Shown: in pieces, positions 12,324 through 39,000 of the stretch | Layout of the letters: every line of letters starts with the position of its first letter | Numbering within the stretch: position 1 is the stretch's first letter | Assembly (NCBI GenBank): GCA_025055015.1 | Contig: JANWYQ010000031.1 | Coordinates: 1-39,199 of the forward strand | Length of the DNA: 39,199 nt | Origin: Caldilineales bacterium | GTDB lineage: Bacteria; Chloroflexota; Anaerolineae; JAAEKA01 | Reading direction: 5' to 3' | Position numbers and translations under genes: made by a program | The notes under the pieces: model-generated | Database searches by the model: none | The model's input: the letters and a program-made list of their open reading frames with translations, nothing else | What the model was told of the DNA's origin: nothing

Positions 12324-12406
12324 GCCCCCGTGGTGGAATTGGCATACACGGCAGGTTGAGGGCCTGTGCCCTAGCGGGCGTGTCCGTTCGAGTCGGACCG
12401 GGGGCA
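12324..12406 (+). tRNA. tRNA-Leu (anticodon GAG)
   Basis: An 83-nt class II tRNA. The acceptor stem GCCCCCG (12324-12330) pairs with CGGGGGC (12399-12405), discriminator A at 12406. The anticodon stem GCAGG/CCTGT encloses loop TTGAGGG with anticodon GAG at 12358-12360. The long variable arm GCCC-TAGC-GGGC is typical of leucine tRNAs. The T arm is GTCCG-TTCGAGT-CGGAC. The CCA end is not encoded (ACCT follows). Confidence 0.95.
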
Positions 12407-12420
12407 CCTGGGTAGACAAG

Positions 12421-13891: not shown

Positions 13892-16378
13892 TCAGAACTG
13901 CTCCGCCAGCCGCATGATCAGCGGCAGGTAGAACCGCTGCAGCGGCACGGGCGTAGCCGTAGGCGTGGGCGACGGCGTGGCCGTGGGGGTCGGCGTGGGC
14001 GTGCGAGTAGCCGTGGGTGTGGAGGTAGCCGTGGGCGTGGGGGTCGGCGTGTCGGTCGGCGTGGCCGTGGGCGTAGCCGTCGGCGTCGAGGTGGGCGTGG
14101 GCGTGCGGGTGGCGGTGGGTGTCGGCGTGGGCGTGGAGCGGATCTCGCCGAAGTCCACCTGCACCTTGACCCCCAGCCGCGGCACGGTGACCGTGCGCTC
14201 GTTGGGCGTGGTGCTGGTCCAACCCTCCGGCTGCACCTGGGAGACGGTGTAGGTGCCCGGCGTGCGGATCAGGAAGGCGTACCAGCCGCAGCAGCCGCTG
14301 GTGGTGGAGCGGCCGCCGCTCAGGTTCACCGTCACACCGCCGATGCCCGTCTCGCCCAGCCAGGGCTGGTAGACCCCATCCCCGTTGCGGTCGTCGAACA
14401 CCCACCCGCCGATCTCCGACTGCGGCGGTCCGATCTCGAAGCTGACGCTGTCCGTCAGGTTGAAGGTGAAGCCGTTCGCGTCCTGGGCGCCGGTTACCTG
14501 GGCCGTGTTGGTGGAGCTGGTGCAGGCGGTGGTCGGCGTGAAGGTCAGGTTGACGGTCACGCTCTGGCCAGGCGCTAGGGGCCCGGTGGCCGTGGTCAGG
14601 TCGAACCAGGTCAGGGAGGGCGACAGGCTGTCGGGCGGGATGCTGGCGCTGACGAACTGCATGCAGGTGGGATTGAAGGTGTCCTGCAGCGGCAGGCGGG
14701 TAATGGTGGTGCTGCCGATGTTGCGGATCTCCACGGCAAAGGTGGCCGGTTGGCCGCTGATCACCGCGTTGTCGGCCGGGTAGGGCCCGGTCAGTCGCTT
14801 GTCCAGGCTCAGGTTGGCTGCGAGCACGCGGGCCGTGGCCTGGGCCGAGGTGGACACGCCCCGGGCTGGCGCGCTGGCGGTCCAGGTGACGACGTTGTCG
14901 GTGCTCTGGTTGAGGGTGGTGGTGCGGGTGATGAACACCGTGCCGCCGGGGCCCAGCGGGTAGGAGAGGCCGGCGGCGATGGTGCCCAGCCGGTTGTCCA
15001 CCACCGTGTGCTGGGTTAGCGTCACTGTGCCGGTGTTGCGGACGCGGAAGCAGTAGGTCACCCGGTCGCCCGCCTTGATGGCTAGGGTGTTGCCGGCGGC
15101 GCAGGTGTTGGGATCGGTGCCTACCGTCTTGGTCACCACGATGGACGCCACCTCCACCAGGGCAGAGTCGCTGTCGGTCACCGACAGGCCCAGGGCCGGC
15201 ACGCGGGCCGTCCACGTCATCGCGTTGGCCGTGGTGCTGGTCAACACGGCGGACTTGGTGATGAAGGTGCTGGCTCCCGGCAGCAGGTTGCGGGCCAGGC
15301 CGCTGGCAATAACGCCCAGCCGGTTGTCCACCACGTCGTGCAAGGGCAGGGCCACGCTGCCGGTGTTGGTGGCCCGGTAGCAGTACACCACCCGCGTGCC
15401 CGCCGCCACGTAGAGCGGGTCGCTGGTGCCGCAAGCCAGCGGGTTGGTGCCGGCCGTCTTCTGGACCTGCAGCGACGCCACCTCCACCCGGGCCGTGTCG
15501 CTGTCCTGCACCGTCACGTCCCAGTCGGGCAGGGTGGCGGTCCAGGTGGCGACGTTGGTGACAGCCGTGTCCACGGTGGTGGCCACGGTGATGAACGCGC
15601 TGGCGCCGGGCGTCAAGGTGTACGGATAGCTGGCCAGGATGACGCCCAGCTCGCTGTCCACCAGGTCGTGCAGCGGCAGGTCCACGCTGCCCGTGTTGGT
15701 GACCTGGTAGCAGTAGACCACCTCGCTGCCGGCGACCACGCTGACCGCGTCGGTGGCCGCGCAGGTCAGCCGGCTGGTGCCCACGGTCTTGGTCAGCTCC
15801 AGGTTGGCGACGTGGACGGTGGCCGTGTCGCTGGCCAACACCGGCGGGGTCAGCCCGCCGGTGCCTGCCGTCCACACGGCCAGGTTGGCCACGCTTTGGG
15901 TGACCACGGCGGTGGCGGTGAGGGTGGCTGTGCCGCCGGGCGGCAGGGGATAGGCTAGGTTCAAGGCGATGGTGCCCAGCTGGCTGTCGAACAGGCTGTG
16001 GCGGGTCAGGGTGACCGAGCCGGTGTTGCGCACCTGGTAACAGTACACCACCTCGGTGCCGGGAGCGACCACGAGGGTGTCGTCGGACCCGCAGACCAGC
16101 GGGTCCAGGCCCACGGTCTTGGTGAGCACGATGGCTGCAGCCAGGGGACGGGCAAGAGGAGCGGCCTTAGCGCCGGGCTGGATGGAGCCGATGGCCTTGG
16201 GCGGCGGCAGCCGGGCCGGCTGCTGGGCCTCGGGCGCAGCCTTGGCGAGGCCTATGGGCCCGGCCACGCCGCCGGCGCCGGGCTGGGCCGCCAGGGCCAC
16301 CGCCCCGGCCGTGAGCACCAGGCCCAGCCCAAGGGCGAGCGCTAGGGCCAGGAGCTGTGTCTTTCGTGCGGTAGACAT
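13892..16378 (-). CDS. Large secreted surface protein: four 110-residue repeats, DUF11-like and SdrD-B-like domains, Thr-Pro stalk
   Basis: 828 residues. A Sec signal peptide (residues 1-31, [20 protein letters not shown]) is followed by four tandem repeats of exactly 110 residues beginning near 85, 195, 305 and 415. Each has KT(V/A)G...C..., VYC(Y/F)...NTG and VD(N/S)xLG motifs, and a Cys pair 17 residues apart (96/113, 206/223, 316/333, 426/443), probably a disulfide. A DUF11-like domain (about 525-650) follows, then an SdrD-B-like domain starting [19 protein letters not shown] Thr-Pro stalk (about 745-810) precedes the tail [16 protein letters not shown]. There is no LPXTG signal. AGGAGG lies just before the ATG on the minus strand. 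Likely a cell-surface or adhesion protein; anchoring mode unknown. Confidence 0.85.
13949..14146 (-). repeat. Low-complexity DNA encoding the Thr-Pro stalk
   Basis: A run of GGCGTG/GGGCGT-like 6-bp units (plus-strand reading) encodes TPT, TAT and TPTPT tripeptides on the minus strand. The number of units is likely to vary between strains by slippage, changing stalk length without shifting frame. Confidence 0.7.
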
Positions 16379-31038: not shown

Positions 31039-31246
31039 GCTCGCACCGGGGTGTGCGTATGGGTTCGCACCTAGGGGTGCGAACTCCGCATTCGGAACTC
31101 GTTCGCACCAGGGGGTGCGAACTCCGCAGCGCGGTTGGCATTGCGGTTCGCACCTGGGGGTGCGAACTTCGCGGGAAATGACCTTTTGCCTGCGGAGGGA
31201 GGCGCCCCCAGGCGCCGGCGGGTTGTTCGCACCGGGTGGTGCGAAC
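31039..31246. repeat. Array of four 22-bp palindromes (plus one degenerate), left copy
   Basis: The palindrome GTTCGCACC-N4-GGTGCGAAC occurs perfectly at 31063-31084, 31101-31122, 31146-31167 and 31225-31246, with loops TAGG, AGGG, TGGG and GGGT. A degenerate relative is at 31039-31060. An additional palindrome, GGCGCC-CCCA-GGCGCC, lies at 31201-31216. Unit spacing is irregular (16 to 57 bp) and intervening bases differ, so it is not a CRISPR. Together with the terminator and heptamers it fills the 367-bp gap between gmhB and eno, where no gene is seen. Confidence 0.9.
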
Positions 31247-31259
31247 TCCACGGTGGACT

Positions 31260-31301
31260 GTTTACCGTTTACCGTTCACTGTTCACCGTCTACCGTTCAC
31301 C
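31260..31301. repeat. Heptamer array, six GTTYACY-type units
   Basis: Six head-to-tail 7-bp units in perfect register: GTTTACC, GTTTACC, GTTCACT, GTTCACC, GTCTACC, GTTCACC. The array ends 6 bp from the eno stop codon and 13 bp from the last palindrome. Confidence 0.9.
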
Positions 31302-37394: not shown

Positions 37395-37522
37395 GCGGGG
37401 AGCGGTGAACGGTAAACGGTGAACGGTAAACGGTGAACGGTGAACGGTAATCAGTGATCAGTGATCAGTGATCAGTGATCGGTAGTCAGTGATCGGTGAT
37501 CGTTAACTCGTAACCTGCGACC
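37390..37522. repeat. Nineteen-unit heptamer array between the desulfurase and mnmA genes
   Basis: The units run in unbroken 7-bp register: GGTGAGC, GGGGAGC, alternating GGTGAAC and GGTAAAC, GGTAATC, four AGTGATC in a row, GGTAGTC, AGTGATC, GGTGATC, GTTAACT, CGTAACC, TGCGACC. The TGA stop of the desulfurase (37392-37394) is inside the first unit. Nothing else is seen in the 189-bp gap. Confidence 0.93.
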
Positions 37523-37583: not shown

Positions 37584-38759
37584 ATGCCTCGCGTTGTTGT
37601 TGCCATGAGCGGCGGGGTGGATAGCTCCTTGGCCGCAGCCCTGCTGAAGGAGCGGGGCTACGAAGTGATCGGCGTGATGATGCGCCTGTGGGCCGAGCTG
37701 TCGGCCGGCGAGGCCAGCACCAACAAGTGCTGCTCGCTGGAGGCGGTCAACGACGCGCGCCGCGTGGCCGATGCGTTGGACATCCCCTTCTACCTGATCA
37801 ACGTTGAGCAGCCGTTTAAGGAGCGGGTGGTGGACTTCACCGTGGCCGGCTACCTGGCCGGGGAGACGCCCAACCCCTGCGTCCAGTGCAACCGCCACAT
37901 CCGCTTCGACTACCTGTTCAACTACGCCATGCGCCTGGGCGCAGACTACCTGGCCACCGGCCACTACGCCCGCGTCCGCCGCGTAGAAAGTGTGCCGTCT
38001 TTAGCTGAAAGCCATGAGACGCTCTCTACCGACCGCGGATCACCGATCACCGATCACCGGTCACCGCTCACCGGCTACTACCAGCTCCTCACCGCCGTTG
38101 ACCTGGACAAGGACCAGAGCTACGTGCTGCACGTGCTGACCCAGCGCCACCTGGCGCGGGTGCTCTTTCCGGTGGGCGAGTACACCAAGGCCGAGGTGCG
38201 ACAGATGGCGGCGGAGCGCGGGCTGCCCGTGGCCGGCCGGCGGGAGAGCCAGGACCTCTGCTTCCTGGCCGACGGTGACTATCGCCGCTTCCTGCGCGAC
38301 TGGGCGCCGGCCGGCGCCATCCGGCCCGGCCCCATCGTGGACAGCAGCGGCCGGGTGTTGGGCCAGCACAGCGGCCTGCCCTTCTACACCGTTGGCCAGC
38401 GCAAGGGATTGGGCATCGCGGCCCGCGAGCCGCTCTACGTGCTGCGCCTGGAGCCGGCCACCAACACCGTGGTAGTGGGCCCGGCGGCGGAGCTGGGCCG
38501 CGACCGGCTGACTGCGCGCACGGTGAACTGGATCGCCGGCCGGCCGCCGGATGGGCCGATCCGCGCCCAGGTGAAGATCCGCTACAAGGCGCAGCCTGTG
38601 GCGGCCACCGTGATCCCCCTGCCCAACGACCGGGCAGCGGTGCGCTTCGATCGCCCGCTGCGGGACATCACCGCCGGCCAGGCGGCCGTGTTCTACGACG
38701 GGGAGGTGTGCCTGGGGGGTGGGTTGATTGAGGTGGAGGAGGGGGTCGGTGAGCGGTGA
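37584..38759 (+). CDS. mnmA: tRNA 2-thiouridylase MnmA with a repeat-derived insertion
   Basis: 391 residues from ATG 37584 ([15 protein letters not shown]), about 30 longer than usual. The PP-loop SGGVDSS is at 9-15, catalytic Cys102 in NPCVQCN and second catalytic Cys226 in [14 protein letters not shown] and DKDQSYVL are conserved. It thiolates U34 of tRNAs for Lys, Glu and Gln using sulfur from a desulfurase such as the one upstream. Between [10 protein letters not shown] and [16 protein letters not shown] sits an extra stretch (about residues 134-164) partly encoded by heptamer repeats. The last residues GER and the stop also come from a heptamer array. An earlier ATG at 37545 adds 13 non-conserved residues. 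Confidence 0.95.
38024..38079. repeat. Heptamer array inside the mnmA reading frame
   Basis: Clear units GATCACC x3, GGTCACC, GCTCACC span 38038-38072, flanked by degenerate CTCTACC, GACCGCG and GGCTACT. GATCACC is the reverse complement of the GGTGATC unit at 37495-37501. The array is translated as [12 protein letters not shown] within the protein. Confidence 0.9.
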
Positions 38760-38810
38760 GCGGTGAACGGTAAACCGTGAACGGTGAACGGTAAACGGTG
38801 AACCGTGAAC
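38748..38810. repeat. Nine-unit heptamer array over the mnmA stop codon
   Basis: Units GGTGAGC x2, GGTGAAC, GGTAAAC, CGTGAAC, GGTGAAC, GGTAAAC, GGTGAAC, CGTGAAC in register. The mnmA stop TGA (38757-38759) lies in the second unit. Confidence 0.92.
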
Positions 38811-38816
38811 AGCGGA

Positions 38817-39000
38817 GTTCGCACCCCCAGGTGCGAACGCATGCCCAGCGTGGAGTACGCACCCCCAGGTGCGAACCCGTAAGCGCCGTGCTTCTCTGTG
38901 GAGTGCGAACCCCCAGGTGCAAACCCCCCGGCGCCTGGGGGCGCCTCCCTCCGCAGGCGAGAGGTGATTTCCCGCGGAGTTCGCACCCCCAGGTGCGAAC
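38817..39000. repeat. Array of four 22-bp palindromes, right copy, inverted relative to the left copy
   Basis: Perfect palindromes (GTTCGCACC-N4-GGTGCGAAC, loop CCCA) at 38817-38838 and 38979-39000; near-perfect at 38855-38876 and degenerate at 38903-38924. The segment 38921-39000 is the reverse complement of 31146-31225 with 6 mismatches in 80. The 408-bp interval from mnmA to the next gene holds this array, the heptamers, about 107 bp with nothing recognisable (39001-39107), and a promoter. Confidence 0.9.

Follow-up and report, generated by a model that had tools for sequence, protein, structure and literature searches.

The palindromes that cluster in two arrays within 39,199 nucleotides of a Caldilineales genome (contig JANWYQ010000031.1; the window) are best read, with a probability of about 0.83, as BIME-like REP arrays with a GNGGAG foot, which serve as substrates of a REP-associated tyrosine transposase (RAYT). 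Their copy number, one-sided tag, inverted partner hairpin (REP2), stems compensated between species, and a clade of RAYT genes flanked by the hairpins in relatives all point to a REP/RAYT system in which GGAG takes the place of the usual GTAG.

The hairpins would then be non-autonomous substrates of the RAYT, an HUH-Y1 enzyme. To judge from RAYTs already studied, its targets would be the hairpin and tag of single-stranded DNA, with cutting and rejoining nearby, a step that would spread copies into intergenic sites. Repeated copying of a module in which REP1 and REP2 have one tag and loop, in opposite orientation, could then give rise to the arrays.

Anatomy of the REP1 hairpin

The palindromes are genuine and far from random. 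Allowing up to three mismatches, GTTCGCACC-N4-GGTGCGAAC matches the window eight times against 0.03 expected, and none of 100 shuffles reached eight. The sequence-only reading had counted six perfect and at least three degenerate copies in two arrays, and this is borne out, with perfect palindromes starting at 31063, 31101, 31146, 31225, 38817 and 38979, imperfect ones at 38855 (one mismatch) and 38903 (three), and a ninth at 31039 (five). The palindromes of 31063-31246 occupy the minus strand, those of 38817-39000 the plus strand, and every copy in the window carries its GNGGA tag on a single side. In tag-strand orientation, the six perfect copies have the loops CCTA, CCCT, CCCA, ACCC, CCCA and CCCA. 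Rfam at gathering thresholds gave no match in the window.

A larger set was assembled from 42 fetched stretches plus the window, in which matches with up to three mismatches gave 113 copies in 44 clusters; it leaves out at least six places found by model search, on contigs C11, C13, C20, C43, C138 and C163. Aligned on one strand, the 113 copies define a 27-nt unit, REP1, of the form GCGGA-GTTCGCACC-CCCA-GGTGCGAAC, in which a GNGGAG tag is followed by a 9-bp stem around a 4-nt loop, the last G of the tag doubling as the first base of the stem. The base before the GGA of the tag is C in 90 of the 113 copies. A control with the tag reversed was set aside, as it also admitted true copies tagged GAGGA. 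The loop is CCCA in 84 copies and CCTA in 14, and is thus conserved and directional on the tag strand rather than freely varying as had been supposed; positions further out are little conserved.

REP1 folded as single-stranded DNA forms the expected hairpin from either strand. The earlier proposal of a hairpin or a symmetric binding site therefore holds for the hairpin but fails on symmetry, the tag being one-sided and the loop directional. Stem changes among the 113 copies of the window genome mostly break the pair, with two compensated cases, at pair 3, and the constancy of the stem within this genome therefore reflects a homogeneous repeat family. The elements had also been called REP-like but longer than REPs; they are REP-like, but 27 nt falls inside the 20-40 bp range given in the accessible text of one survey (PMC3733652).

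Organisation of the arrays

Both window arrays are intergenic by gene calls, as first described. Of the 44 REP1 clusters, none falls within a gene as called by a self-trained gene caller. The array at 31063-31246 sits between a HAD-like hydrolase gene and an enolase gene. Its minus-strand REP1 copies, each found by pattern and covariance model, occupy 31063..31089 (tag GCGGA, loop CCTA), 31101..31127 (GCGGA, CCCT), 31146..31172 (GCGAA, CCCA) and 31225..31251 (GTGGA, ACCC), next to the degenerate palindrome at 31039..31060 (minus strand, five mismatches, pattern match). The array at 38812-39000 comes after a tRNA methyl transferase-type gene (37584-38759) and holds, on the plus strand, two consensus copies (38812..38838 and 38974..39000) and one with a single stem change (38850..38876), all three found by pattern and covariance model, together with a degenerate copy with three changes (38898..38924; pattern, model E 0.1).

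Each array also contains an oppositely oriented partner hairpin, REP2, which the sequence-only reading missed. Its form is GCGGAGNNA-GGCGCC-CCCA-GGCGCC, with the tag and loop of REP1. The window copies lie at 31192..31216 on the plus strand (tag GCGGAG, stem GGCGCC, loop CCCA) and at 38930..38954 on the minus strand, both opposite to their REP1 neighbours and both with model E 0.18. Twenty REP2 hairpins were found within 300 bp of a REP1, and all 17 that could be oriented by their tag are opposed to it. Some REP2 copies fold further with one bulged A; by inspection, the two in the window pair in GGCGCC only.

In the window genome, 64 of 65 pairs of adjacent REP1 copies are head-to-tail and their spacing ranges from 22 to 134 bp, which agrees with the earlier description of clusters without a fixed period. 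Of 32 multi-copy clusters, 31 keep a single orientation. The model search showed REP1 and inverted REP2 alternating regularly on contig C13, three times over. The arrays of REP1 and inverted REP2 are, in short, built like a BIME. An inverted stretch of 79 nt is common to both window arrays (94%). An all-against-all comparison of arrays was set aside, the matches listed being driven by the REPs and by heptamers and showing no clean module boundaries.

Distribution in the window genome and in relatives

The window genome (4.14 Mb in 238 contigs, 91.6% complete) carries 74 exact palindromes and none of the reversed pattern, so that the palindrome is present well beyond the window, and a covariance model gave at least 135 matches when 150 of 6204 candidates were scored. 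A contig end is no more than about 300 bp away from many of the REP arrays (contigs C9, C13, C20, C53, C83, C90, C98, C111, C134, C145, C210, C217 and C234 of this genome), and the repeats therefore probably break its assembly.

An exact-pattern search of 60 genomes, the own genome and relatives, found the palindrome in the own genome only, and for this reason a structure model (R1) was built, from 20 hand-picked copies. Of 298 genomes of the class, R1 matched 21, the own included. Of 400 genomes drawn from the phylum it matched three, namely the own, a second member of the class and a third genome that gave one weak hit. Among these matches the same tag stands on other stems (GTTCGCATC, GTTCGCACG, GTTTGCACC, GTCCGCGCC, GTGCGCATC and GTCGGCATC), and the foot of the tag in relatives is often AGGA rather than CGGA. 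When the 150 best of the 372 local matches (57 distinct rows) are aligned, pairing holds in 97.3% of cells and changes on both sides occur in five of the nine stem pairs, in 28 cells against a shuffle mean of 2.7, figures to be read with the model biasing which sequences are found, the alignment leaning to its structure and the shuffles leaving relatedness in. Compensation, proposed earlier as a check on the stem, is thus mostly lacking within the window genome but present across related families and species, where it supports the hairpin.

A scan of a genome collection for GGAGTTCGCACC-N4-GGTGCGAA, which may leave out records of the window's own genome, returned 38 stretches, 36 of them from a Caldilineaceae MAG (Gw_Eff_bin_337, entered as both G060 and G102), one from an Anaerolineae MAG (Co_bin.203, entered as both G061 and G121) and one from a Methanoculleus MAG; the members of each pair share the same hits and contigs. 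The window genome is assigned to one class with G102 and G121 and hence presumably to the Anaerolineae of the Chloroflexota. The Methanoculleus match (L106) was taken as chance, with a GTCA loop and no model match in that genome. In the Caldilineaceae MAG the tag of the copies reads G[CAT]GGAG and the loop CCCT, and a second hairpin in the opposite direction often follows. In the fetched loci of this genome, eight of 11 neighbouring REP1 pairs are dimers with inward tags and a period of 52-55 bp. On contig C11 of G066 (L133/L154), two kinds of GAGGA-tagged hairpin alternate in a regular BIME-like satellite with a 165-bp tandem period.

A RAYT clade flanked by the hairpins

Searches for PF01797 genes found one in the own genome, matches in two of three genomes reached via loci, and matches in all twelve of a set of hairpin-bearing genomes. 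In two loci a PF01797 gene is flanked by tagged hairpins, in G256 (L169) and G156 (L177), and the two proteins are 60% identical. The G256 gene lies between inverted copies: about 35 bp separate the end of the upstream copy from the matched part of the gene, and about 38 bp lie between that part and the start of the inverted copy. The G156 gene also has copies on both sides. The G256 protein scores above the cut-off of NCBIfam REP_Tyr_transpos. It also matches E. coli TnpAREP (4er8) with E 7e-8, in an alignment that takes in the HUH stretch (HLH against HMH) as well as the tyrosine stretch.

A profile of these two proteins, run over 396 genomes of the class with an E limit of 1e-15, hit 65 of them. 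Six proteins scored 288-378 bits and the next 166 bits, and a quick FastTree tree of 59 Y1 proteins places the six in one apparent group. Under a strict rule (tag GNGGA followed by G, at least 8 of 9 pairs, a locus of roughly 1.5 kb on each side), hairpins occur at four of the six clade genes against none of 59 other Y1 loci, a few of which overlap (p 2e-5). Of the two clade genes that fail the rule, L199 has degenerate GAGGAG-tagged hairpins by eye and L201 has none. By inspection, the RAYT gene is directly followed in G256 and in G280 by tagged hairpins with a second stem, the G280 one resembling the REP2 of the window genome that has a bulged A. From these associations we infer that the clade probably cleaves and mobilises the hairpins.

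The search for a RAYT suggested by the sequence-only reading thus succeeded in relatives, but found no clade RAYT in the 91.6%-complete window assembly. None was found in the REP-rich genomes G102, G003, G108, G289 and G066 either. These absences in six genomes, together with the two clade genes that fail the strict rule and the mostly uncompensated stem changes within the window genome, count against the RAYT reading. The clade RAYT of the window species was either lost or missed in the assembly; many arrays lie at contig ends, so a RAYT flanked by arrays could have dropped out, and the species presumably had such a gene or still has one, unassembled. According to the text available from one study (PMC3686654), it is quite frequent in pseudomonads and stenotrophomonads for REPs to be abundant while their RAYT is absent.

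The two Y1 genes that the window genome does have belong to other branches and have no such hairpins nearby. Both were rejected as the cognate enzyme, the PF01797 gene on C227 being flanked by other repeats and lying on a different branch, and the gene on C149 lying on another branch away from these hairpins. The four PF01797 genes of the Caldilineaceae MAG were likewise rejected, being flanked by other repeats, one of GTAG type. Most examined Y1 genes of the class sit between tandem hairpin repeats of their own, which differ from one another (L119, L121, L122, L124, L125, L170, and L016 on C227 of the own genome). Examples are GTAGGTGCGGTT-N3-AACCGCAC at L124 and L125, TTCCGGAA types at L122, and an array with a 62-bp period at L170.

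Alternative explanations

The same hairpins might be tagged REPs without a dedicated enzyme, either relics or sequences that an unrelated transposase has spread, and their proximity to RAYT genes would reflect chance or secondary landings. The failure to find a clade RAYT in most REP-rich genomes, the window's included, would fit such an origin, for which the CGTC REPs, as described in the accessible text of PMC3733652, are a precedent. Against it stand the contrast between clade genes and other Y1 loci (4/6 against 0/59) and the reported frequency of abundant REPs that lack their RAYT in the pseudomonad and stenotrophomonad cases already cited (PMC3686654). We consider this origin unlikely, though clearly ahead of the two readings that follow.

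An RNA role for the hairpins, as transcription terminators or as stabilisers of mRNA 3' ends that selection on gene expression maintains, is very improbable. The hairpins are stable (folded as DNA) and mostly adjoin gene ends, and both window arrays follow, on their tag side, a gene in sense. A T-run after the hairpin, as in an intrinsic terminator, was found on neither strand in any of the 113 copies, however, and the positional bias relative to gene ends that had been proposed as a check is not significant, 42 of 74 neighbouring gene ends being 3' ends (p 0.3). Between tandem genes the element is sense in eight cases and antisense in 12; six clusters lie between convergent genes and four between divergent ones, and 14 have no called gene on one side. 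The one-sided DNA tag and the RAYT linkage would also go unexplained, although a secondary effect of the hairpins on mRNA is possible. Least probable of all is that they are operator sites for a symmetric DNA-binding protein, whether a regulator or a nucleoid protein. A near-perfect palindrome in intergenic arrays is what such a protein would call for, but tag and loop make the site one-sided, one orientation prevails in nearly all multi-copy clusters, and compensated stems with a fixed tag and loop across species are unexpected for a protein that reads the duplex. The earlier interpretation of the palindromes is partly supported, and substrates of a RAYT remain the preferred account.

Comparison with known REP systems

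Published REP work centres on GTAG/GTGG feet read by RAYTs and on CGTC REPs, for which no enzyme is known. In their accessible text, Di Nocera et al. (2013; PMC3733652) distinguish two tag superfamilies, GTAG and CGTC, and Quentin et al. (2018; PMC6006769) report that most RAYT subclasses with REPs use feet of the form GT[AG]G and that the foot of the rare class 3 proteins is CnGA.

The closest likeness is to the GTAG REPs and BIMEs with their RAYT (TnpAREP) in E. coli, Pseudomonas and Stenotrophomonas, which are also short, intergenic palindromes of high copy number tagged on one side, with inverted partner hairpins, RAYT genes between inverted copies and an enzyme of the Y1-HUH family. The present family differs in its foot, GNGGAG, which has GGAG in the GTAG position rather than GT[AG]G, and in its 9-bp stem and 4-nt CCC[AT] loop; with GGAG in the window-genome foot, in place of GTAG or GTGG, it falls outside the GTAG superfamily. 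Cleavage at CT has been explained by positions 3 and 4 of GTAG, according to the part of PMC8266576 that treats cleavage. GGAG keeps both letters and would hence be expected to direct cleavage at CT, a prediction only. CT stands directly before the tag in 18 of the 113 copies against a background of 5.8%, an enrichment too mild to be relied on.

Resemblance to REPINs is seen in the inward REP1 dimers of G060 and in the inverted REP1-REP2 pairs of the window genome, in which, in contrast, inverted REP1-REP1 pairs are nearly absent (1/65). The CGTC REPs (Di Nocera et al., 2013), as far as their description is accessible, share an 8-9 bp stem, a 4-5 nt loop and the lack of an adjoining transposase gene, the last as in the window genome, but the window tag is not CGTC and relatives have a RAYT clade with flanking hairpins. 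Class 3 TnpAY1 elements (Quentin et al., 2018), whose proteins are marked by a Y----Q motif, were compared by description; they too are hairpins of high copy number next to a Y1 transposase, their foot is other than GTAG, and CGGA in the window genome fits CnGA. The associated protein scores as REP_Tyr_transpos, however, and CnGA is not kept, since the C that prevails in the window genome is replaced by A (AGGA) in many relatives.

GGAG does not occur as a word start in the main text of PMC3733652, PMC6006769, PMC8266576, PMC2817692, PMC3686654 or PMC12306157, and a literature search on REPs or RAYTs with GGAG, Chloroflexota or Anaerolineae, with most subscription papers outside its scope, found no description of the family among the papers listed. 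A natural RAYT clade paired with a guide one base away, and with several compensated stems, would make the guide, stem and loop rules of TnpAREP testable by comparison, and the window genome offers a case of an abundant REP population for which no matching RAYT was found. GGAG REPs are also a repeat marker for uncultured Chloroflexota, where the arrays are often at contig ends.

Heptamer arrays and other features of the window

Of 39 clusters with at least 100 bp available on the tag side, 19 have tandem heptamers of the GGTGAAC type there, no more than 250 bp away, against one of 40 on the other side (p 1e-6), with one further array on a short tag-side flank. Those on the tag side are always on the tag strand, at a gap of 0 to 99 bp from the tag, and no fixed phase between heptamers and tag was found. 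Candidate explanations are directional insertion of the REPs next to heptamers and joint copying of the two. A fuller proposal, in which a distinct Anaerolineae RAYT clade reads GNGGAG instead of GTAG and leaves the stem free while tag and loop stay fixed, with the heptamers as directional landing sites or co-copied sequence, is tentative and in its entirety rather doubtful.

In the window, heptamer arrays of the GGTGAAC/GGTGATC type lie at 31260-31301 (minus strand), 36195 (minus), 37404-37501 (plus), 38038-38079 (minus) and 38748-38810 (plus), and three of the five have no adjoining REP. The first and last are on the tag side of the two REP1 arrays and are possibly part of the element; the first bases of the one at 38748..38810 overlap the end of the preceding gene. 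The array at 38038-38079 falls within that same called gene.

Elsewhere, the minus-strand gene at 13892-16378 contains, at 13932-14148 and 14978-16127, GGCGTGGGCGTG-like repeats based on 6 nt and spaced by 12 and 18 nt, as well as a 330-bp repeat present four times, and its sequence predicts a repeat-domain protein with a low-complexity stretch. A tRNA-Leu (gag) gene at 12324-12408 is the sole tRNA gene found in the window.
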